Source: Microvirga lotononidis | GTDB lineage: Bacteria > Pseudomonadota > Alphaproteobacteria > Rhizobiales > Beijerinckiaceae | Direction: 5' to 3' | Assembly (NCBI RefSeq): GCF_034627025.1 | Contig: NZ_CP141049.1 | Location: 930,001 to 994,000 of the forward strand | Length of the DNA: 64,000 nucleotides | In this document: in pieces, positions 15,684-56,818 of the stretch | Layout of the letters: each line of letters opens with the position of its first letter | Numbering within the stretch: position 1 is the stretch's first letter | Translations under genes and position numbers: made by a program | The notes under the pieces: generated by a model | Databases searched by the model: none | Seen by the model: only the letters and a program-made list of their open reading frames with translations | What the model was told of the DNA's origin: nothing

Positions 15684-16843
15684 GTCAAAGCGGTCACGGC
15701 CTTGCGGCGCAGATCAGCATCGTGACGATCGCGCTCGGTGTAGCGGCCAAGTTTATCCCGAAAGCTGTTGTCGCGCTGGCGGGCTGCGACCTGAGCGGCC
15801 ATCCACAACGCCCGGCGCAAGCGGGCATTGCCGTACTTCGACAGTTTGGTGCGGCCACGGAACGTGCCCGACTTGCAGGTGGCCAGATCAAGACCACAGA
15901 ACTTCAGGAACTGGCGGTGGTGCCCGAAGCGGCGCAGATCACCGGCTTCCGCCAGGATGGTCAGGGCGTGGATTGGTCCAATTCCCGGGATCGTGCACAG
16001 CCGCTGATAGTCAACGTGATCAGCCAGCATTGCATGAGCGAGCTTCTCAATCTGATCCCTCTGTCGGATCAGACTACGGACCTCGGCCAGAACCATGCGG
16101 AACATGGCGATGGCCGCAGAGCCTTCTGCTACGGGCAGAGCCGTAGAGGAGCGTGCGGTCTCATAGATATCGTTGAGCAACCGGGCTTTGGAGACCTTGC
16201 GGCCGATCACGGGCCATGCCTCCTCCACAAAGCTCTCCCGGTCCAGGGCCATGATGCTGGAGGGCGTGGGAAAGCGCTCGAGCAGGGCCAGGAACCAGTC
16301 GGAGCGGCTGTTGCCGGCGAAACGCTCGATCTCGGGAAAGTACAGAGGCAGGTAATGGGTCAGGATCCGGTGCCAGGTCTCGGTCTTGGCCTTGGAGATC
16401 GCCTCATGGGTTTTTGACAGCTCTTGCAGGTCGTTGATCCCGGCCGCCAGGGGATCGACATAGCGTTGGGTCGCTCCAATCCGGAGCATGTGCAGGATCA
16501 CCTGTGCGTCCTTGGGATCGTTCTTGTCCCAACCATTGTGCAGCGCCTCCCGGGTGCGGGCGAGCGCCACGGACGAGACCAGCCGCAACTCGAAGCCGGC
16601 TGAGAGCAGGCGGTAGGCCAGCCCGCGGTGGTAATCGCCTGTGGCCTCAAAGCCGATGAGCACTGGGCCGCCGTAAGCCATAATGATCTCGACGAGGCGG
16701 TCATACTCCGCCTTTTTGCTCAAGATGGTAAGCCGCCGACGCCGCTGATGGCCGGCAGCCTCGATGAGCACCTCGTGGCGGTGCTTGGCGATGTCGATTG
16801 CTACCAGAGTGGCAGGGACAGGTGTACGATTGAGCTCGGTCAT
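15684..16843 (-). pseudogene. IS110-family transposase, N-terminal and central part
   Basis: About 386 residues from [25 protein letters not shown] domain ([39 protein letters not shown]) and transposase-20 domain (IPGIGPIHALTILAEAGD). The frame is interrupted at AVTALTA by the IS21 insertion and its last residues lie at 12907-13039. The two parts join in frame over the duplicated 7 bp, so the gene was intact before IS21 arrived. Confidence 0.85.
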
Positions 16844-16959
16844 GGTCGGTCGGCCTCCAGTGTGTGTTCAGCGACATCACTGTGAGACCTGTCGGCTGGC
16901 CATGACCACCCCGGGCAGCGCGGCTGCGCAACCCGGACCAGCTCCGCCGCGCTGCTTCC

Positions 16960-17351
16960 CCATGTACTACGGCACCGAACTGACTTCGAACGCCGTTCTC
17001 ACTTGGTGTGCCGAGCACCGGATCGAGTGGCATTACATTGCCCCGGGCAAGCCGATGCAGAACGGCTACATCGAGTCGTTCAACGGCCGCATGCGCGATG
17101 AGCTGCTGAACGAAAGCCTGTTCTTCGGACTGGATCATGCCCGCGAGCTGATCGCGGCCTGGGTTGAGGATTACAACACGGAGAGACCCCACTCTTCCTT
17201 GGGCTATCAGACGCCGCAGGCGTTCTCCAAAGCCCTACGAACCGCAAGGGACCATCACATTGCGCAACGGACAGGCTCCGCGCGCTGGCCCCTTGCTCCT
17301 GTCGCGCCACACGGCGTATCACCTGCCGAGGCTCTAAACGCCACTGGATGA
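16960..17351 (+). pseudogene. IS3 OrfB, 3' fragment
   Basis: The frame from [20 protein letters not shown] through [20 protein letters not shown] and [18 protein letters not shown] is the C-terminal catalytic part of a second IS3-type OrfB. It begins at the second catalytic Asp motif (D-Y-G-T-E), next to the noncoding end of the IS110 at 16843. The 5' part of this orfB is not present nearby. Confidence 0.75.
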
Positions 17352-17545: not shown

Positions 17546-17968
17546 CTAGCCACGCCACCAGTTGCCAATCTTTGAAAGGGTGCGCGCCAGCACGCGACCC
17601 AACCTCGAAAGGAAACCCGCAGGCTCGGGAGCCAGGGCCGCGGCGTCTCGGCGGTCGCGGGCCTTCACCGCCGCTATGACCTCCGGTGCCATAGCGCCAG
17701 CCCAGCTGACGCGGTTCCCCTTGATCCAGTAGTGCGACTGACAGGGAAAGCTCCAGTTGCCGATCGAGGGGGAGAGGGAGACCGTGCCGCCGTCCTCTTT
17801 CAGGTGCCACTTGGCCGGATTGAGCGGCGTGACGACCTCGCTCCCGCAGCCGCAGCAGCACAGGTGCAGCGCCGTCGCGTAGCGCTTCGAGACGTAAAGG
17901 AAGCCGGGCGCGGGTCGCTCCGGTATGTACTCCACAAACTCCGGGGAGAGCTGGTCGATGCGGGTCAT
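17546..17968 (-). CDS. DUF6527-type protein of a ubiquitin-like operon
   Basis: A 140-residue protein with a Cys cluster (CCCGC, residues 37-41) and the conserved block SIGNWSFPCQSHYWI (68-82). I recognise this as the DUF6527 family found with bacterial ubiquitin-like (Bub-type) operons, where it is thought to process or remove the Ub-like protein; that activity is recalled knowledge, not visible here. The last 35 residues are basic and lack a recognised domain. Its ATG overlaps the E1-like gene stop (ATGA), so the two are translationally coupled. It is the last gene of the operon. An IS3 fragment ends about 195 bases downstream. Confidence 0.75.
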   Translation of the reverse strand: MTRIDQLSPEFVEYIPERPAPGFLYVSKRYATALHLCCCGCGSEVVTPLNPAKWHLKEDGGTVSLSPSIGNWSFPCQSHYWIKGNRVSWAGAMAPEVIAAVKARDRRDAAALAPEPAGFLSRLGRVLARTLSKIGNWWRG

Positions 17969-19134
17969 TCGGCTCCCTCATTGGCGATCTCGCCGGGAGC
18001 GATAGCATAGCCCGTGTAAACGGCCTGTCCCGTATCGCGGTAGATTCCGACCATCTTCTTCCACTGGATCACCGCCATGGCGGCGTTAAGCGCGTTGAGC
18101 TCGGCAATCTGGATGTTCGTCGTGTAGTCGTTGGCTGCGGCGTCGTCGGCAAAAGAAATATGCCGCTCCGCGATCCCGCGGGTAGCGGGCGTGCTCGAAG
18201 TCACCCGCACGATGCCACCCATCTGGCCGTCTGTCAGGAGAACGCCCAGGCCGACCTCGACGAACGGGGTTCCGTTCGCAGTAAGCCTGTCCACGACTAT
18301 GCGCTTGGCGGCGCCCTGGTCGATGCAGACAAAGACGAAGTCGAGCCCGTCGAGCAGGGCCAGGTTGTGCTCGCTGAGGAAGGCGTCATGCACGATGATC
18401 CCGTTGTGCATGTTCGAGTAGATTTCGCTGAGCCGCACCGCCTTCCTCGGACGCGCCTGCAGTTCTTCGAGAGTGGGAGCACCGGGCGCGCGAAAGGCGT
18501 TGTGCTGCGAGAACACATCGCCGTCGATCAGTCGGATTTCGGCAACCTCGGTCTTCGCGACCAGGTCGAGCACGTAGCTGCCGGTTCCGCCGAGACCGGC
18601 GATGCCGACCTTCTGGCCCGCCAGCTTGCCGTTCACTGCCGAGATCCCCGCGCGGCTCGATGCCGCGTCCACATACTTGAACGGTCCTCCGCACTCGTCC
18701 GCAGGGATCGCGGGGAAGATGCGGGCGTCGGCGTCGGGATCGAGCTTGGTCGCCTCGCCGGTGATGCGAGCGATGTAGCTCGTCATCTTGTGGTGATAGT
18801 CCCGGTAGTCGGCCTTCGCCGAGAAGGTGTGGTCGGCGCTGACGCCGTCGCAGAGCACCTGCGGCGTGGAGCTATTCTCTATGGCGCGGATTTTGCCGCC
18901 GTCGCTGTGGCAGGGGTGCTCCCCGGTCCAGTAGGCGACGTGATCCCCCGGCTTGTTCGTCACGTCGCCCGAAAGGTCGAGCCGCGAGATCAGGATGCCG
19001 CGCTGCACGGTGCGGTCGGCCCCGACATAGGGGACATTCCTGACGAGCAGGAAGCCACCCCGAATGTCGAGGTCGTAGCCTTCGTTCCGCAGGCGGGAGA
19101 GGTCGGAACTAAGAGCGATTGGTCGAAGTGACAT
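17965..19134 (-). CDS. E1-like ThiF-family adenylyltransferase with N-terminal extra domain
   Basis: A 389-residue protein. Residues 1-150 form a conserved module with LLVRNVPYV and GEHPCHSDGGKIR, which I associate with DUF6791; its H-P-x-x-x-x-x-G pattern recalls E2 enzymes, but that link is inference. Residues 170-389 are the ThiF/MoeB/E1 domain, with the ATP-binding GLGGTGSYVLDLVAK (180-194) and LIDGD (202-206). FVFVCIDQGAAKR contains a possible catalytic Cys (C270). The enzyme should adenylate the C-terminus of the Ub-like protein encoded just upstream. The long open frame continues upstream, but ATG 19134 lies within the end of the Ub-like gene (26-base overlap) and gives the family N-terminus. 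Complete and undamaged. Confidence 0.85.
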   Translation of the reverse strand: MSLRPIALSSDLSRLRNEGYDLDIRGGFLLVRNVPYVGADRTVQRGILISRLDLSGDVTNKPGDHVAYWTGEHPCHSDGGKIRAIENSSTPQVLCDGVSADHTFSAKADYRDYHHKMTSYIARITGEATKLDPDADARIFPAIPADECGGPFKYVDAASSRAGISAVNGKLAGQKVGIAGLGGTGSYVLDLVAKTEVAEIRLIDGDVFSQHNAFRAPGAPTLEELQARPRKAVRLSEIYSNMHNGIIVHDAFLSEHNLALLDGLDFVFVCIDQGAAKRIVVDRLTANGTPFVEVGLGVLLTDGQMGGIVRVTSSTPATRGIAERHISFADDAAANDYTTNIQIAELNALNAAMAVIQWKKMVGIYRDTGQAVYTGYAIAPGEIANEGAE

Positions 19135-19378
19135 CGAATTCCATCCCGTCCTTAACCTTGACCGACTGGCCTTCGACCACGGCTCCGGTGGGTTTGTTGC
19201 CTTGGCCGCGTGAGTACTGGATCGTGTACTGGATGCCGTCGCCGGTCGGCGGGTTCTCGAAGGCCAGGGCGACGACCTCCTCGAAGGTGAGATCATCGTT
19301 CTTCGGGATCGTCTTGGGCCGTCCGTTGATAATGATGGTGACTGTCTTGATGTCCTCGTTCCGGTGCGGAGCGTTCAT
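19109..19378 (-). CDS. Ubiquitin-like protein, multiubiquitin (PF14452-type) family
   Basis: A small protein of 89 residues: VTIIINGRPKTI, FEEVVALAFENPP, YTIQYSRGQGNKP and VKVKDGMEFDVT follow the beta-grasp outline of the Multi_ubiq family, with one domain rather than tandem copies. The C-terminus ends VTSTNRS without a di-glycine, as in other members, so maturation or direct activation differs from eukaryotic ubiquitin. AAGGAGA precedes the ATG. It is the first gene of a three-gene operon with the E1-like and DUF6527-type genes. The promoter lies in the shared 135-bp gap with the XRE regulator. Confidence 0.85.
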   Translation of the reverse strand: MNAPHRNEDIKTVTIIINGRPKTIPKNDDLTFEEVVALAFENPPTGDGIQYTIQYSRGQGNKPTGAVVEGQSVKVKDGMEFDVTSTNRS

Positions 19379-19422
19379 ACGCGTTCTCCTTAGACGTGGG
19401 ACGCGCCGCTGCCAGACGCGCC

Positions 19423-19440
19423 GATTGCAGATTCGCAATC
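19423..19440. promoter_or_regulatory. Palindromic operator 1
   Basis: GATTGC, six bases, GCAATC: a perfect 6-bp inverted repeat. It overlaps the -35 hexamer (TTGCAG, 19426-19431) of the rightward promoter, whose -10 is TATATA at 19448-19453. A second operator with the same layout lies 46 bp away. The neighbouring XRE regulator is the likely binder (inference). Confidence 0.65.
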
Positions 19441-19447
19441 GATTCCG

Positions 19448-19453
19448 TATATA
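19448..19453. promoter_or_regulatory. Shared TATATA -10 of a divergent promoter pair
   Basis: TATATA can serve as -10 in both directions. Rightward, it pairs with TTGCAG (16-bp spacer). Leftward, it pairs with TTGCAA (17-bp spacer, lying in operator 2). If correct, the Ub-like operon and the XRE/ImmA genes compete for one compact promoter. Confidence 0.5.
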
Positions 19454-19468
19454 GAAGCGAGTCGACGA

Positions 19469-19486
19469 AATTGCAAGATCGCAATT
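19469..19486. promoter_or_regulatory. Palindromic operator 2
   Basis: AATTGC, six bases, GCAATT: same arm length and spacing as operator 1 (consensus RATTGC-N6-GCAATY). It overlaps the -35 region of the leftward promoter for the Ub-like operon. Confidence 0.65.
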
Positions 19487-19513
19487 GCGTTCCGATTTCG
19501 CAACGGTGAGGAC

Positions 19514-19858
19514 ATGACAGACAGGTTTGACAGCGAAGCCTTTTACGCGGCCCTGAACGCCGCTCGCCTGAGCAAGCAGATGACATGGAAAGACGTGGCC
19601 GAAGAGGCCGGGATAGCAGCTTCGACGCTGTCCCGCATAGGCCACGGGGCAAAGCCCGATGTGAACGGCCTTGCGGCCCTTCTCGCCTGGTCGAACCTCA
19701 AGGCGGAAGATTTCATTCGGGGAGCAAAGACAGAAGAAGCGGAGCCACTGGCAAAGATCACGGCGCTCTTGCGTGCGGACCCGCATCTATCGACGCAGAA
19801 CGCACAGCTGATGGAGAACATCGTCATCAGCACCTACAACAAGCTCCGGGGCACCTGA
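19514..19858 (+). CDS. XRE-type helix-turn-helix regulator
   Basis: A 114-residue protein with an N-terminal helix-turn-helix (MTWKDVAEEAGIAASTLSRI, residues 25-44) and a C-terminal helical tail. GAGG precedes the ATG. It is divergent from the Ub-like operon and one base upstream of an ImmA/IrrE protease gene. XRE/ImmA pairs elsewhere act as repressor and inducing protease, so it probably binds the two palindromes in the shared promoter. That role is inferred from context. Confidence 0.8.
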   Translation: MTDRFDSEAFYAALNAARLSKQMTWKDVAEEAGIAASTLSRIGHGAKPDVNGLAALLAWSNLKAEDFIRGAKTEEAEPLAKITALLRADPHLSTQNAQLMENIVISTYNKLRGT

Positions 19859-19859
19859 A

Positions 19860-20423
19860 TTGACGTTCCGTCGTGGTTTCAAAGCCGAGGCAAACCGGAT
19901 CGCGCTGCGCATCCGCGACCGAATGGGACTAAGCCCCATTGACCCCCTTGATCCTTTCGAGGTCTGTACCCGACTCGATATCCGTGTGATCCGGCTGAGC
20001 GAGATCGACCCGCACTCGGCCTTCCTGAGAGGCGAGAGCTCGGCCTTTTCGGCCGTCACTGTTCCCTGCGGGCACGAAATGGCCATCGTCCATAACGACT
20101 CGCATCATCTCTACCGGCAGCGGAGCAACCTGGCCCATGAGCTCGCCCACTGCTTCCTCGGCCACAAATGCACGCCGCCGCTCACCGAGAAGGGCGAACG
20201 GGCGCGGGACGGCGGGATCGAGGGGGAAGCGAACTTCTTGGGTGGCGCGCTTCTGATCCCCAACGAGGCGGCGCTGCACATCATCAGCAACGGCCTCATG
20301 ATGGCGGCGCAGCGCCTGTACGGGGTCAGCCAAGCTATGCTTACCTATCGGCTCCGCATCAGCGGCGCTCATACGATCTACCGGCGCAGGTCCGGCCTCC
20401 CGTATAGGGGAAGCCGCATCTGA
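19860..20423 (+). CDS. ImmA/IrrE-family metallopeptidase
   Basis: A 187-residue protein with the zinc motif HELAHCFLGH (HExxH at residues 93-97) and a downstream third ligand candidate in EGEANFLGGALLIP. The start is TTG at 19860, one base after the XRE stop, so translation is coupled. Relatives cleave partner repressors in phage, ICE and defence systems. Here it would relieve repression of the Ub-like operon upon a stress or phage signal (inference). A strong hairpin follows the stop. Confidence 0.8.
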   Translation: MTFRRGFKAEANRIALRIRDRMGLSPIDPLDPFEVCTRLDIRVIRLSEIDPHSAFLRGESSAFSAVTVPCGHEMAIVHNDSHHLYRQRSNLAHELAHCFLGHKCTPPLTEKGERARDGGIEGEANFLGGALLIPNEAALHIISNGLMMAAQRLYGVSQAMLTYRLRISGAHTIYRRRSGLPYRGSRI

Positions 20424-20449
20424 CTGGCAGGGGCGCTCCCCTGCCAGTC
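20422..20449 (+). terminator. Strong hairpin after the ImmA/IrrE gene
   Basis: A perfect 12-bp inverted repeat (arms GACTGGCAGGGG and its complement) with a four-base loop begins inside the stop codon. No T-run follows, so it is either an atypical terminator or an mRNA-stabilising stem. It closes the XRE/ImmA unit. Confidence 0.65.
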
Positions 20450-21046: not shown

Positions 21047-22320
21047 TCAGGCGGCGGGTTGAGCTTGAGATCCAGGTTGGGAAGCACCGACCTCAAGGCC
21101 GTCAGCGAACTTCACACCCTGGATCAGCTTTGGCAACTGGTTTGGTCCATCAAGGCGTCGCCAGCCCTTCTGAGCTCCCTCGACCAGCTTGAAGACCATG
21201 ATCAAGGCAGTTTGGTTTGACAGACACCCCTTGGCCCGGATTGTTCGGTGCCGCACGGTGGCGAACGTACTTTCAATCGGATTGGTCGTTCTCAGGTCTT
21301 CCAGTGCTCGGCGGGAAAATCGTAGAAGGCCAGGAGCGCATCGCGATCTTTGACCAGGCAGTCCACGGCTTTCTCGTACTTGATGCGGTAGGTTTGCGTG
21401 AAGGCGTCGAACGCGGCCAGAGCATCCTTCTTGGTCTCGGCCATCCAGATGGCCTGAAGGGCGGATTTGGCTTTGGCGTGAAGGCTCTTCGGCAGCCGGT
21501 TGAGGACATTGGCGGTCTTGTGCACCCAGCAGCGCTGCTCGCGCGTCAGAGGCCAGACCTCGCCGAGCGCCTTCCAGAAGCCCAGCGCACCATCGGCCAC
21601 CGCGATTTCCGGCGCAGCCGCCAATCCCCGCCGTCTCAGGTCCAGCAGCAGGTCGCGCCAGGAGTGGGCGCTCTCGCGCAGGCCATCGGTAAAGCCTACC
21701 AACTCCTTTTTGCCTTCCGGCGTCGCCCCGATGAGGACGAGGATGCACTGGGCTTGGTCTTCCAAGCGTGCCTCCAGATGGATGCCGTCCGCCCACAGGT
21801 AGACATAGCGCTTGGCCGACAGATCACGCTTTTGCCAGCGGGCATGGTCCTCGCTCCAGACCTGCTTCAGGCGAGCGATGGTCGAGGCCGACAGCCCGGG
21901 CGCGTCCTGGCCCACCAGGGCCGAGAGCGCTTCGGCAAAGTCGCCGGTGGAGATGCCTTTGAGGTACAGGACCGGGATGAGCACCTCCAGGCTCTTCGAG
22001 CGCCGGGCATAGGGTGGCAGGATCGAGGGCCTGAACCGAACCTGCTCGGTCGGGCTCGCCTGCCGGTCACGCACGCGGGGCTGGCGCACGCCGACCGGGC
22101 CAATGCCGGTCAACACCTCGCGGGATGGCAGATAGCCGTGGCGCACCAGGCGCTGCAGTCCGTTCTCCGTCTTGAGTGTGGCGTGCTGGGCGAGGAAATC
22201 GGCGACTTCGGCCTCAATGGCTTGGGCCAGTAAGGCGCGGGCACCCTCGCGCAGGATGTCGGTCAGAGAGTCGGTAAAGCTCCCTGGCTGGGCGAGCTTG
22301 AAGACGTTATGATCAGACAA
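21047..22320 (-). pseudogene. IS256-family transposase with one frameshift
   Basis: From 22320 the frame has the IS256/mutator signature: LSALVGQDAPGLSASTI, YVYLWADGIHLEARL, LVLIGATPEGKKELVGF and RCWVHKTANVLNRLPKSLH. It ends at about 21292 in AEHWKT. The remaining conserved end (LRTTNPIESTFATVRHRTI onward to 21047) follows in another frame. The junction is explained by loss of one base in the codon after HWK. The rest is full length, so the damage is recent. Confidence 0.85.
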
Positions 22321-48023: not shown

Positions 48024-49307
48024 ATGAACCTGCTTGCCACAACCAGCACTGTCGCCATCTCCTGCTACGCACTGCTCTCGACCGCTTATAAAGGCATGCA
48101 GGTGGCTTATGCTGTGCCGACAAACGGCCCACTGGCGTCGGACGACCCGGCCGGCTCCGACCCTCTGCCGAGCGTGGATGTCATCATCCCCTGCTTCAAC
48201 GAAGACCCAAGCACGCTCTCGGCATGCCTCGCTTCGGTTGCCGACCAGGATTATGCGGGAGAGCTGCGGGTCTATGTGGTCGATGACGGTTCTAGGAACC
48301 GCAACGCCGTGGAACCTGTACACGACACCTACGCGCGCGACTCGAGGTTCCATTTCATTCTGCTCCGCGAGAACGTTGGAAAGCGCAAGGCGCAGATCGC
48401 GGCGATACGCCGCTCATCCGGAGGCTTGGTGCTCAACGTTGACTCGGACACGACCCTCGCACGCGACGTCGTCACAAAGCTTGCATCGAAGATGCAGAAC
48501 CTATCGATCGGTGCAGCCATGGGCCAATTGACAGCCAGCAACCGAAGCGACACTTGGCTGACGCGGCTAATCGACATGGAGTACTGGCTTGCCTGCAATG
48601 AGGAACGCGCAGCGCAGGCCCGCTTCGGCGCTGTTATGTGTTGCTGCGGCCCTTGTGCTATGTACCGCCGGTCTGCACTTCTTTTGCTGCTAGATCAGTA
48701 CGAGACGCAGCTGTTCCGGGGCAAGCCAAGCGACTTCGGTGAGGATCGCCACCTCACGATCCTTATGCTGAAGGCAGGCTTTCGCACCGAGTACGTTCCG
48801 GATGCCATCGCGGCAACCGTCGTTCCGGACAGCCTGGGGTCGTATCTGCGCCAGCAACTCCGCTGGGCACGGAGCACGTTCCGTGACACTTTGCTTGCGT
48901 TGCGCCTGCTGCCCAGTCTCGATCGTTACCTCACGCTGGACGTGGTCGGACAGAATCTCGGCCCACTCCTTCTCGCGCTAGCGGTACTCACCGGACTTGG
49001 GCAGCTCGCACTGACAGCCGAAGTGCCTTCGTGGACAGTCCTGATGATCGTGTCCATGATAATAACACGCTGCAGCGTGGCAGCGTTTCGTGCTGGCCAG
49101 CTTCGATTTCTCGGCTTCTCGCTGCACGCAATCATCAATATTCTTCTCTTACTCCCCCTGAAAGCCTATGCCTTGTGTACATTGAGCAATAGCGATTGGC
49201 TGTCGCGTGGCCCCGCGGCCAACGTTCCAAACAGCAGTAGAAAACTGGGCGCTATCCAAAGACCAAAGTTGGTGGCATCTGACGGCACTTGCAGCGACGA
49301 GCGATAG
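48024..49307 (+). CDS. nodC: N-acetylglucosaminyltransferase NodC
   Basis: A 427-residue membrane GT2 chitin-oligosaccharide synthase. It has an N-terminal membrane segment, the UDP-GlcNAc-binding [13 protein letters not shown] and VVDDGSRN, the DSDT metal motif, GED, and QQLRWARS (the QxxRW processivity motif), then C-terminal membrane segments ([20 protein letters not shown]). It builds the Nod factor backbone. 15 bases after nodB. Confidence 0.95.
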
Positions 49308-49464
49308 CCGACTTAGCGCAGGCGGACGAGTTTTGAGACAGGACAGGAAAAGTCAGTTGCTGAATCGGGATTTGGCTACAGAGGATCCTTACAGGCTCGA
49401 GCCCAATTCGCTCGAACGGGAACCTCGTACAATCATAAGCGCAAAAGGTTCCCTACCTGACTCT

Positions 49465-50379
49465 ATGTCAACCGTGGCAATCGATTTTGCCGGTGTAATG
49501 AAATCATATGGCGACAAAATCGCTGTCGACGGGCTGTCGTTCACCGTTGCGCCGGGAGAGTGCTTCGGCCTGCTGGGACCAAACGGCGCAGGGAAAAGCA
49601 CGATTACGCGTATGGTCCTCGGAATGACAACGCCTGACGCGGGTACGATCACGGTGCTCGGCGTGCCGGTTCCGGCACGCGCTCGTTTGGCACGCGAGCG
49701 CATCGGCGTGGTTCCGCAATTCGATAACCTTGACTTGGAACTGACCGTACGCGAGAATCTGTGGGTGTTCGGGCGCTACTTCAGCATGAGCACGCGCGAG
49801 GTCGAAGCGGTCATCCCATCGCTCCTTGAGTTCGCCTGTCTTGAGAGCAAAGCAGATGCACGGGTCACGGAGTTATCCGGCGGCATGAAGCGGCGCCTGA
49901 CGCTGGCGCGAGCGCTGGTCAACGACCCGCAGCTGTTGGTGATGGATGAGCCGACCACTGGGCTCGACCCGCACGCGCGCCGCTTGGTCTGGGAGCGCCT
50001 GCGGTCGCTGTTGGCGCGGGGCAAGACGATCCTCCTGACGACCCACTTCATGGAAGAGGCCGAGCGCTTGTGCGATCGGCTGTGCGTGCTCGAGGGAGGG
50101 CGTAAGATCGCCCAAGGCCGACCTCATGCGCTGATCGACGAGCAGATCGGGTGCCAAGTGATTGAGATCTACGGTGGCAATCCGCATGAGCTGCGTGCGC
50201 TAATCAGGCCCTACGCGCAGCGCATTGAGGTAAGCGGCGAGACGCTCTTTTGTTATGCGTCCGATCCGGAGCAGGTGTGCGTGCAACTGCGCGGGCGCGC
50301 GGGTCTGCGGCTTCTGCAGCGTCCCCCAAATCTGGAGGATGTCTTTTTGGGACTGACTGGGCGTGAGATAGGGAAATGA
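49465..50379 (+). CDS. nodI: Nod factor exporter ATPase NodI
   Basis: A 304-residue ABC-2 ATPase: Walker [16 protein letters not shown], signature [15 protein letters not shown], Walker [13 protein letters not shown] and switch His in [11 protein letters not shown]. The frame is open to 49207, but ATG 49465 gives the family N-terminus; the sequence before it is not NodI-like. It partners with NodJ, whose start overlaps its stop (ATGA). Confidence 0.93.
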
Positions 50380-51170
50380 ATATAGGCAAAGGTTTTTCGG
50401 CGGGTCTGCCAGCTAACGCATGGAACTGGGCCGCGGTATGGCGCCGCAACGGTCTTGCATGGAGGAAAGTCGCGCTTGCATCGGTTCTTGGCAGCCTCGC
50501 CGAGCCTATGATCTATTTGTTTGGCCTCGGCTTTGGTTTGGGAATAATGGTAGGTAGGGTTGACGGCACCTCATACATCGCGTTTCTGACCGGCGGCATG
50601 GTTGCGACAAGCGCGATGACTTCCGCGACCTCTGAAACGATTTATGCCGCTTTCGCCCGAATGAACGCTCAGCGCACGTGGGAGGCAATCCTGCACACAC
50701 AGCTCACGCTCGGCGATATTGTTCTGGGTGAGTTGGCGTGGGCAGCGACCAAAGCCGTCCTGGCTGGAACGGCAATTATGTTTGTTGCCGCAGCTCTGGG
50801 CTATGCAGCGTGGCCATCCGCCCTCTATGCACTACCAGTCGTTATCCTCACTGGTTTCGCCTTCGCGAGCTTGGCGATGGTCGTCGCGGCGCTGGCGCCC
50901 AGTTACGACTATTTCGTGTTTTACCAGACGCTCGTCCTCACACCGATGCTGTTCCTATGTGGCGCGGTTTTCCCGGTCGCCCAACTGCCCACCGCTTTTC
51001 AGCATGTAGGGCACTTCTTGCCGCTAGCACATTCGATTGAGCTGATCCGTCCGGCGATGCTCGGCCGCCCGGCCGGCAGTGTCGGCCTGCATATCAGCGC
51101 ACTTTGCATGTACATAATACTGCCGTTCTTCCTGTCGACAGCGCTGCTTTGTCGACGCCTGATGCGTTGA
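50376..51170 (+). CDS. nodJ: Nod factor exporter permease NodJ
   Basis: A 264-residue ABC-2 permease with six predicted membrane segments ([77 protein letters not shown]). It exports lipochitooligosaccharides with NodI. Overlaps nodI. Confidence 0.93.
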
Positions 51171-53979: not shown

Positions 53980-54190
53980 CAGCGCTGGTCCTGCAAGTAC
54001 GGCATCAGCGTTCGTGATCCCGCCAAGATGATGCAACAGCTTGGTACCGAGGTCGACCCATCTGCGATTTTTCGTTGGATGAAGCGCTTGCCCCGGAAGT
54101 CGAGGCGTGGGCCCGCCGGTATCAGGGCCATCGGTCTAGCTCCTGGCGGGTCGATGAAATGTATGCACGGGTTGGCGGTGGGAGGAAGCT
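53980..54190 (+). pseudogene. IS6-family transposase N-terminal fragment
   Basis: [20 protein letters not shown] and [12 protein letters not shown], then after a frame change [20 protein letters not shown] and [10 protein letters not shown], match the N-terminal part of an IS6-type transposase. It lies between the kinase fusion and nodP and is open in frame with nodP. The remaining parts of the 53832-54245 gap show no gene. Confidence 0.65.
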
Positions 54191-54245
54191 AAGAATGAAT
54201 GCGGCGTGCACCTTGTGCCGACCCAAAGAGTTTAGGAGCAGTCCC

Positions 54246-55229
54246 ATGATCAGCGGGCGTGAGGGAGCTGTGCGACACGCAGACCAGATTCATTCCCAAA
54301 GGCACATCCCCGACAGTAACCTGCTTCGGTCCGTGTTGACCCATCTCGACCGCCTTGAGGCGGAGAGCATCTACATCATGCGCGAGGCGGTTGCCGAAAG
54401 CGACAACCCGGTCATGCTATATTCGATCGGCAAGGACTCGTCAGTTCTGCTGCATCTGGCGTTGAAGGCGTTTTATCCGGCGAAGCCTCCATTCCCTCTG
54501 CTTCACGTGGACACGACCTGGAAGTTTCGCGAGATGATCGCATTCCGGGACCGGAGAGCGCGCGAACTCGGGCTCGATCTGTTGGTGCACACCAATCCCG
54601 ATGGACTGGCCCGCAATGTCGGTCCGATCAGCCACGGCTCCGAGGTCCATACCGACGTCATGAAGACCCAGGCGCTCAAGCAGGCGCTCGAGCGCTACGG
54701 CTTCGACGCGGCTTTCGGCGGCGCCCGCCGCGACGAGGAGAAGTCACGGGCGAAGGAACGTGTCTTCTCACTGCGTAATGCGCATCACTGCTGGGATCCC
54801 AAGCGTCAGCGCCCGGAGCCCTGGCAGCTCTATAACGGCCGCAAGCGCTGGGGTGAGAGCCTGCGCGTCTTTCCACTCTCCAACTGGACCGAACTCGACA
54901 TTTGGCTCTACATCCACCGTGAGAACATCCCCATCGTGCCGCTCTACTTCGCGGCTGAGCGACCGGTCGTGGAGCGGGACGGCATGCTCATCATGGTGGA
55001 TGATGACAGGCTGCCGCTCCATCCTGGCGAGCAGCCACAGCTCCGATCTGTCCGGTTCAGAACGCTCGGCTGCTATCCCCTGACCGGTGCGGTAGAGAGC
55101 ACGGCAGCCACGCTCCCGGACATTATTCGCGAAACGCTCGAGGCGCGCACGTCCGAGCGAAATGGGCGCGCGATCGATAAGGACACGGCAGCGTCCATGG
55201 AACGCAAGAAGCAAGAGGGCTACTTCTGA
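54246..55229 (+). CDS. nodP: ATP sulfurylase small subunit NodP
   Basis: A 327-residue CysD-type PAPS-reductase-fold protein that makes APS from ATP and sulfate with NodQ. Motifs: [20 protein letters not shown] (PP-loop SxGKDS), [33 protein letters not shown] and [17 protein letters not shown]. The open frame extends back into IS6 sequence. ATG 54246 has AGGAG eight bases upstream and is preferred over ATG 54195. The stop overlaps the nodQ start (TGATG). Confidence 0.92.
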
Positions 55230-56818
55230 TGACGGTTCATCGCGCACCTGAGAGTTTCGAGCTGGAGGATTACCTCGCGGCCCAAGAGCGCAAGAGCTTG
55301 CTTCGCTTCATCACCTGCGGCTCCGTCGACGACGGCAAGTCCACGCTGATCGGCCGCCTGTTGTACGAGTCCAAGCGCCTGTTCGACGATCAGCTCGCCA
55401 CGCTCGAGCGCGATTCACGCAAGCACGGAACCCAAGGAGGAGAGATCGACTTCTCGCTCCTGGTCGACGGGCTTGCCAGTGAGCGCGAGCAGGGGATTAC
55501 GATCGATGTTGCCTACCGGTTCTTTTCGACGGATCGGCGGACCTTCATCGTCGCCGATACGCCGGGCCATGAACAATATACGAGGAACATGGCGACGGGC
55601 GCCTCGACGGCCGATGTGGCCATCCTTCTCATCGATGCACGCAAAGGGATCACGCGGCAGACCCGTCGACATGCTCTGCTCGTATCCATGCTCGGGACCC
55701 GGCACATTGCCTTGGCCATCAACAAGATGGATCTCGTGAACTGGTCGGAGGCGAAGTTCAATGAGATAGTGGCGGCGTTCCATATCTTCTCGGGCAACCT
55801 CGGCTTTGAACGCGTGACTGCGGTTCCATTGTCCGCCTTGCATGGCGACAACATCGTTAGGCCGCCACCGCAGGCCGCTTGGTATCAGGGCCCGACGCTT
55901 CTGTCTTATCTTGAGACGGTGGAGGTAGTGCCTAGGGGCGGAGCCGAGCCGTTTCGCTTGCCGGTTCAATGGGTCAACCGGCCGAACCCGGACTTTCGGG
56001 GCTTCGCGGGTCTGATAACGAGCAGCGTGATCAGGGTTGGAGAGCGGGTGCGGGTGGTGCCCTCCGGCCTTGAGTCCACCGTTGCAGGGATCGTGACATT
56101 TGACGGAAATCTGGATGAGGCAGTTGCCGGGCAGTCCGTTACGCTTATCTTGTCCGATGAAGTTGATGTCTCCCGGGGCGATATCATTGCTTCCGTTGAG
56201 CAGGCTCCGCATGTCTCCGACAGGATCGATGCCCGCCTGTTCTGGATGGCAAGAGAACATCTGAAGGAAGGCGACCAATTTCTCCTGAAGCTTGGGACGC
56301 AAACGGTTCCCGTCACAGTGATCGCGGTTCGCCAGAAGATCGATCTTGCGACACTCACACCTGTGAATGTTTCCTCCTTGGGAGCGAACGACATTGGGGA
56401 CGTCATTCTCACAGCCGATTATCCAGTTGCATTCGATACCTATGCGGAGAGCCGCTGCACGGGCGGATTCATCCTCATCAATAGGGAGAGCTTCGACACG
56501 GTTGCGATTGGCCTAGTGAGTGGATTAGGCCATAGTTCTCAGGACCAGACGGAGGTCGATCAGAGCAGGGCACAGAAAACTTGGCTCAAGCCCCCCAGCG
56601 AAAGACCTTGGCGAAGTGTGCTCAAGGCAATCTCATGGCGGATCACAGGCTCACTTGACACAATGGTCGTCGCATTCTTCTTTACGCAGAATGTCCGCCT
56701 GTCGGCAGCGATCGGAGCCACGGAGGTTTTAACAAAGCTCGTACTCTACTATGGGCATGAGCGTCTCTGGGACCGGATCATGTTTGGGCTGATCCGCAGC
56801 GGTGACGGGCCACGGTAG
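55229..56818 (+). CDS. nodQ: ATP sulfurylase GTPase subunit NodQ with C-terminal DUF2061 instead of APS kinase
   Basis: A 529-residue protein. Residues 1-445: CysN-type GTPase with G1 CGSVDDGKSTLIGRLL, G3 DTPGHEQYTRNM, G4 INKMD and two beta-barrel domains. Typical NodQ then carries an APS kinase of about 180 residues. Here a linker leads to about 70 residues of DUF2061 (RSVLKAISWRITGSLDTMVV; GATEVLTKLVLYYGHERLWD), a short two-helix membrane domain. The ATP sulfurylase could therefore sit at the inner membrane. The kinase step is presumably done by the fusion protein at 53049-53831. Coupled to nodP. Confidence 0.88.
   Translation: MTVHRAPESFELEDYLAAQERKSLLRFITCGSVDDGKSTLIGRLLYESKRLFDDQLATLERDSRKHGTQGGEIDFSLLVDGLASEREQGITIDVAYRFFSTDRRTFIVADTPGHEQYTRNMATGASTADVAILLIDARKGITRQTRRHALLVSMLGTRHIALAINKMDLVNWSEAKFNEIVAAFHIFSGNLGFERVTAVPLSALHGDNIVRPPPQAAWYQGPTLLSYLETVEVVPRGGAEPFRLPVQWVNRPNPDFRGFAGLITSSVIRVGERVRVVPSGLESTVAGIVTFDGNLDEAVAGQSVTLILSDEVDVSRGDIIASVEQAPHVSDRIDARLFWMAREHLKEGDQFLLKLGTQTVPVTVIAVRQKIDLATLTPVNVSSLGANDIGDVILTADYPVAFDTYAESRCTGGFILINRESFDTVAIGLVSGLGHSSQDQTEVDQSRAQKTWLKPPSERPWRSVLKAISWRITGSLDTMVVAFFFTQNVRLSAAIGATEVLTKLVLYYGHERLWDRIMFGLIRSGDGPR

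Follow-up and report, generated by a model that had tools for sequence, protein, structure and literature searches.

We have examined a five-gene cassette in a 64,000-nt stretch of Microvirga lotononidis DNA (contig NZ_CP141049.1, positions 930,001 to 994,000; hereafter the window), in which genes for a DUF6527 protein, an E1-like enzyme and a ubiquitin-like protein (Ubl) of the Multi_ubiq family lie divergent from genes for an XRE-type regulator and an M78 (ImmA/IrrE) metallopeptidase. We propose, with evenly balanced confidence, that the locus represents a DUF6791-type branch of the Multi_ubiq operons that is without a detectable E2 and in which tagging would be induced through the XRE/M78 pair; the other branch of these operons carries a JAB-E1 protein (BubCD) and an E2 (BubB). 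The five-gene set probably attaches the small Ubl to other proteins under the control of a repressor and a protease. The gene set and its order, the adenylation residues of the E1, the serine-terminated Ubl, a fixed gene overlap, twin operator-like sites and the linkage to M78 are properties of the sequences themselves. The module is genuine, selected and widespread, and belongs to a class described in 2006; the window locus is one of thousands of relatives, at least 7,965 of 7,999 scored candidates being E1 homologues. Its interest lies in a branch that combines the lack of a detectable E2 with a Ser-terminated Ubl, and for which we propose a mechanism. Such a branch makes testable what the minimum machinery of a ubiquitin-like pathway is: the sister operons have E1, E2 and JAB, and here one uncharacterised domain occupies the place of the last two, neither of which was detected, and nearly every Ubl read ends in serine. 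Should conjugation work here, it would show that neither a separate E2 nor Gly-Gly, and perhaps not even thioester chemistry, is indispensable.

The serine end of the Ubl and the fixed gene overlap

Relatives were compared in 84 sources, made up of the best 80 of 408 genome loci, 3 further loci (L082, L084 and L085) and 12 kb of the window, with hidden Markov models (HMMs) of our own run on all open reading frames (ORFs). The genome loci were drawn with two conserved E1 peptides, and the set therefore favours the DUF6791 branch by design. The best 80 came from proteobacteria, cyanobacteria, acidobacteria, Bacteroidota, planctomycetes, a Streptomyces and two archaeal contigs (L050 and L055). 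Ubl and DUF6527 genes were each found in 83 of the 84 sources, the single misses falling at contig ends (L042 for Ubl, L009 for DUF6527), and gene order and strand were identical in all remaining sources.

The Ubls, as taken from the longest ORF, ranged from 84 to 301 aa, and all 83 end in serine, within the C-terminal consensus F-[N/D]-V-T-x-T-[D/N/V]-[K/R/Q]-S. At all 83 loci, which range from rhizobia to archaea, the Ubl gene extends past the ATG of the E1 gene, with exactly 26 nt shared between the two; in the window, the conserved E1 start is position 19134, inside the Ubl gene, and the listed ORF ran from 17965 to 19296. When the E1 proteins were held fixed and their synonymous codons resampled, 15.2 terminal serines were expected among the 83 and the mean probability of a stop at that place was 0.08; the last codon observed was TCN in 81 loci and AGC in 2. 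Since 83 serines stand against the 15.2 expected from the E1 codons, the Ubl end appears to be under selection of its own. None of the last 11 consensus residues is glycine, and the glycine at -12 (77 of 83) precedes the apparent last strand. The solved multi-ubiquitin protein 9cd2 also has a serine end, TDKS.

To widen the PF14452 sample we read 25 more genomes and classed 13 as DUF6791 type and 11 as the other type, 1 being cut off; three of the 13 (G266, G004 and G271) are also within the 84 sources. Serine ends the Ubl in 12 of the 13 DUF6791-type genomes. The remaining one, L090, comes from the same genome region as L145 and belongs to a divergent DUF6791-type subclade, its Ubl ending in SRTGQA and that of its sister L089 in SRTGQS. 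Three other-type Ubls (L088, L111 and L117) end in serine, so that the Ser end extends beyond the DUF6791 branch; L095, L114 and L116 end differently, and others are fused to an E2. The Ser end is mentioned nowhere in those parts of the literature that we examined; Ye 2026 and Gong 2025 lay outside that search, so it may already be in print.

The family is sparse in random genome draws and its distribution is sporadic. With the host counted in each draw, DUF6791 was present in 4 of 289 genomes of the class, and PF14452 in 12 of 385 and 15 of 398 genomes. A tblastn search of 72,556 plasmid records found an E1 relative on 117 of them; 50,697 phage records yielded none. The nearest E1 relative among the matches listed is 88% identical.

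E2 and JAB not detected; the N-terminal domain of the E1

The cassette had been described, from the sequence alone, as complete for conjugation. That description does not hold, as E2 and JAB genes were both not found; the position of JAB at the window E1 is taken by DUF6791, which thus stands where two functions are missing. Our E2 model, of BubB type, was built from ten other-type loci, which it then recovered; it matched all 11 other-type loci, with the E2 alone or fused (ten having seeded the model), and in an independent test scored 70 bits at L143. The same model, at E values up to 10, matched no ORF in any of the 84 DUF6791-type sources. A JAB-type motif was present in 7 of 8 other-type ORFs read, the eighth (L143) being perhaps the wrong ORF, and a weak DUF6527-like match (16–33 bits) was seen in 6 of the 11 other-type loci. 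PF14462 was not found in the host or in 11 other DUF6791-type genomes and was present in 5 of 10 other-type genomes, which gives a second independent test of our model; PF14461 had no match in the host genome, in a search without a positive control.

Many Ubls are made as precursors, and this one might likewise be processed, for example by DUF6527 or M78, so that an internal residue is exposed and enters a conventional thioester route with an E2 encoded elsewhere. The near-constant presence of DUF6527, which looks metal-binding, favours such a scheme. However, the only frequent glycine near the Ubl end lies before the apparent last strand, the terminal serine itself appears to be under selection, and the host has neither PF14462, a profile that finds half of the known E2 genomes, nor PF14461; we consider processing unlikely.

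A lack of residues needed for activation would have told against the sequence-only reading, and on this point the outcome is split: those for adenylation are invariant across the aligned E1 relatives, but the Ubl lacks a glycine end and the ThiF domain has no invariant cysteine. Cys75, which lies in DUF6791, is the sole cysteine among the invariant columns of the whole E1, and Tyr337, just before the last long helix, is also invariant. Invariant DUF6791 residues include H65, G71, P74, C75, G79, F104, S105 and K107, and in the predicted model a helix and four strands of the domain lead into an H-P-C loop, which is followed by three short strands and then a long helix; the strand pattern and HPN motif of E2 enzymes served us as a guide. 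In DUF6527, C37, C39, C41, C76, S78 and H79 are invariant in 80 aligned sequences, and the protein is predicted to be a metal-binding beta domain followed by C-terminal helices.

We suggest that the ThiF domain would adenylate the carboxylate of the Ubl C-terminal serine and that the acyl group would then be handed on to proteins by DUF6791, which would serve as an E2-like module within the E1, perhaps by way of the loop residue Tyr337 or of Cys75; DUF6527 might be a metal-binding partner that serves as a releasing or specificity factor. Serine/oxyester chemistry has reportedly been found for Bub in Ye 2026. The strictest form of our proposal, in which the DUF6791-E1 both activates and transfers a Ser-ended modifier without a conserved ThiF thioester cysteine, with the 26-nt overlap frozen from archaea to rhizobia and with induction by a DNA-damage protease, is one that we advance tentatively and with more doubt than belief. 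A pathway like that of ThiS/ThiF, in which the Ubl and E1 deliver sulfur or make a small molecule and no protein is tagged, would also need only an adenylating enzyme and its carrier, but the Ubl has no Gly-Gly end, a Pfam scan detected no rhodanese domain in the E1, and the neighbours are M78/XRE genes rather than biosynthetic genes; we think it very improbable.

Among known systems, the Citrobacter Bub operon (BubA/BubB/BubCD; PDB 9ea4, 9eae and 9eav) shares with the window locus the Multi_ubiq Ubl, a BubCD-type E1, nearest in fold to that of the window and with a tyrosine at the corresponding loop, and control of the CapH+CapP type, but has a JAB domain and the BubB E2, neither of which was found here, where DUF6791 is in their place. 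Bil (BilABCD) is likewise a bacterial Ubl conjugation operon; it carries E2 and JAB genes, and none were found in the DUF6791 branch. Operon class 6e of Iyer, Burroughs and Aravind (2006), as given in its own section of PMC1779556, comprises a Ubl of 1–3 beta-grasp domains, a Cys/His protein and an E1 that is joined either to JAB or, for a subset, to an N-terminal domain then uncharacterised. The window locus resembles that class in having a Ubl and an E1 with a non-JAB N-terminal domain, which we infer from the text of PMC1779556 to be DUF6791. In contrast, the class has an RWD/E2-like domain, which we did not find in the DUF6791 branch. DUF6527 is a possible counterpart of the Cys/His protein, whose pattern is C-x3-C-x(35-38)-H-x2-C in the class, compared with C37-x3-C41-x34-C76-x2-H79 here. 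The class 6e section is silent on the Ser end and on the fixed overlap.

Proposed XRE/M78 control of the cassette

A locus was taken as informative if M78 was seen or if 2.5 kb of upstream DNA was present. By this definition 71 relatives are informative, and 55 of them have M78 upstream (55 of the 79 loci with both Ubl and E1); downstream it was found in 2 of 69; after removal of seven M78 loci with less than 2.5 kb upstream, counted by hand, the upstream figure is 48 of 64. An XRE+M78 pair is divergent at 25 of these loci, and at 7 there is a divergent M78 gene for which no XRE was called; 6 have one divergent protein of a size to match XRE-M78, 4 have a same-strand pair, and at 13 a large M78 protein is encoded on the same strand. 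All five nearest loci among the best 80 (66–69% identity) have the divergent pair. Absence of the pair from related loci, which would have told against the sequence-only reading, was thus not observed, and its suggestion of an inducible form fits the conservation of the twin operator-like sites as well as the precedent published for CapH+CapP.

The core ATTGC-N6-GCAAT starts at 19424 and 19470, within the divergent promoter region, and occurs nowhere else in the window. A pair of dyads 45 bp apart is present in L002, L003, L004 and L006, and one dyad each in L005 and L010; the remaining loci scanned held 2 core dyads in 851 kb. In a control with mononucleotide shuffles, in which nested dyads were counted, 3 dyads were observed against a mean of 0.28, and 13 of 1000 shuffles reached 3. 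This pattern supports a predicted control of both transcripts by XRE at the window locus. The XRE protein, a putative repressor and putative M78 substrate, would bind both dyads and repress both divergent transcripts; DNA damage or single-stranded DNA (ssDNA) would activate the M78 protease, XRE would be cleaved, and the pathway might serve as a stress or defence response. We draw the predicted damage-induced cleavage from CapH+CapP (PMC13373217) and PprI work.

CapH+CapP and the window pair have in common an HTH repressor adjoining an M78 peptidase (HExxH), next to a putative immune operon. The capP profile of PADLOC matches the M78 protein moderately (E 5.6e-9, residues 55–157), and no capH profile match was obtained; activation of cleavage by ssDNA would be a further likeness that we extend to the window pair by analogy. 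The pairing itself is not new. According to Kopfmann 2016 (PMC4963859), 70% of PF14452 proteins adjoin DUF955 loci, so that the regulator link has been in print since 2016. A 2026 paper (PMC13373217) finds CapW or CapH+CapP at 219 operons in a set of 544 of the Bub kind, describes CapH+CapP as regulating CBASS and further immune operons, and states that protection against phage is yet to be demonstrated for Bub operons. With PMC1779556, these sources already publish the class of cassette, its DUF955 neighbour and its link to CapH+CapP; PMC12687455 and PMC12355090 are further prior art.

PMC4963859 also proposes, for Synechocystis pSYSX, that such neighbouring loci are toxin-antitoxin pairs. 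XRE/M78 might accordingly be an addiction pair whose only effect is to keep the Ubl cassette stable on mobile DNA, a reading favoured by the plasmid records and the sporadic distribution. Yet twin dyads in a shared divergent promoter region are the usual layout of a regulator, M78 is also fused to UvrD-PDDEXK and is replaced by other genes at some loci, and the regulatory role given to CapH+CapP in PMC13373217 points the same way, so that we hold addiction to be quite unlikely.

Several observations weigh against the induced, E2-less tagging that we propose. DUF6791 matched one of three E2 profiles weakly (PF14462-type E2s; hhalign score 23.6, Prob 11.6, E 0.0026, residues 1–35 only) and the other two at control level (12.7 and 10.0; unrelated-profile controls 9–15), and a profile search gave it no PDB sequence relative below E 0.16 and no E2 rows. 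Half of the known E2 loci escape detection by PF14462, so that a diverged E2 may lie elsewhere in the genome. The Ubl of L090 ends in alanine. At 16 loci there is no M78 gene within 2.5 kb upstream, and a further eight contigs end too soon; the capH profile gave no match to P0004. The dyads were not found in the scanned promoter regions of the more distant loci, save the one in L010, as would be expected if their regulators differ. Finally, conjugation, XRE cleavage and induction are all predictions.

Several loci have further genes upstream of the cassette. In L008 (1845-5258) and L041 (1695-5225) the Ubl gene is preceded on its own strand by a large gene that encodes, by Pfam, an M78-UvrD-PD-(D/E)XK fusion, which points to ssDNA or DNA ends as what the M78 domain may sense; 11 further loci have M78 proteins of like size, only these two of the 13 having been scanned with Pfam, and four other-type loci have M78 matches of 1121–1170 aa. 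In a cyanobacterial metagenome-assembled genome (L037:3651-4481, minus strand), the strand opposite the Ubl gene carries a proteasome beta-like gene (PF00227, 48 bits) some 1.1 kb upstream. In L026 (3188-5524, plus strand) a subtilase gene (PF00082, 101 bits) is directly upstream on the same strand, and ORFs in L039 and L040 match it in size and order. In L018 (1656-2207) and L019 an upstream same-strand pair (360 or 436 aa, then 183 aa) resembles CapK+CapS, the 183-aa protein of L018 giving weak winged-helix matches below cut-offs. In two Hymenobacter loci (L017:3748-5235 and L043:3613-4671), DndB and SocA/Panacea genes lie upstream of the cassette.

Layout of the cassette and its surroundings

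All five ORFs are open across 17546-20423, and the minus-strand trio is separated from the plus-strand XRE/M78 pair by 135 bp. ORFs and profile matches confirm that the five genes are intact and located as first described, and HMM searches bear out the family names given to them. Features are listed in Table 1.

Table 1. Features of the cassette, in window coordinates
Feature	Position	Strand	Profile match
DUF6527 protein, 140 aa	17546..17968	-	PF20137 86.5 bits
E1-like enzyme, 389 aa: DUF6791 (residues 10-156) + ThiF (170-355)	17965..19134	-	PF20590 167.9 bits, ThiF 56.4 bits
Ubl, 89 aa, one Multi_ubiq domain, C-terminus ...FDVTSTNRS	19109..19378	-	PF14452 59.5 bits
Ubl/E1 gene overlap, 26 nt	19109..19134	-	
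Operator-like dyad GATTGC-N6-GCAATC	19423..19440	.	
Operator-like dyad AATTGC-N6-GCAATT, 46 bp from first dyad	19469..19486	.	
XRE/Cro-type regulator, 114 aa	19514..19858	+	HTH_3 22.1 bits, slightly below cut-off 23
M78 (ImmA/IrrE) metallopeptidase, 187 aa, TTG start, HELAH motif	19860..20423	+	PF06114 47.8 bits
Terminator-like hairpin, perfect 12-bp stem, 4-nt loop, without T run; starts within M78 stop codon	20422..20449	+	

The surroundings had been described as broken insertion sequence (IS) material throughout, which is correct in part. A partial integrase-core piece lies at 16764-17351, and a Mutator/IS256-type copy at 21047-22320 looks split (342 aa part scanned); however, the ORFs of an IS21 pair (262 and 522 aa) appear to be complete, as do two of the IS110 family (399 and 471 aa). 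No evidence was seen for the suggested action of the cassette on the mobile elements themselves, at which no test was aimed.

The placement in a symbiosis region is plausible only, and comes from genes some 29–36 kb from the cassette: ABC transporter genes at 49207-51170, which we take to be like nodI/J, and PAPS_reduct/EF-Tu-type GTPase genes at 54075-56818, presumably like nodP/Q. The host genome, of 7.3 Mb in 4 contigs, has one PF14452 match.

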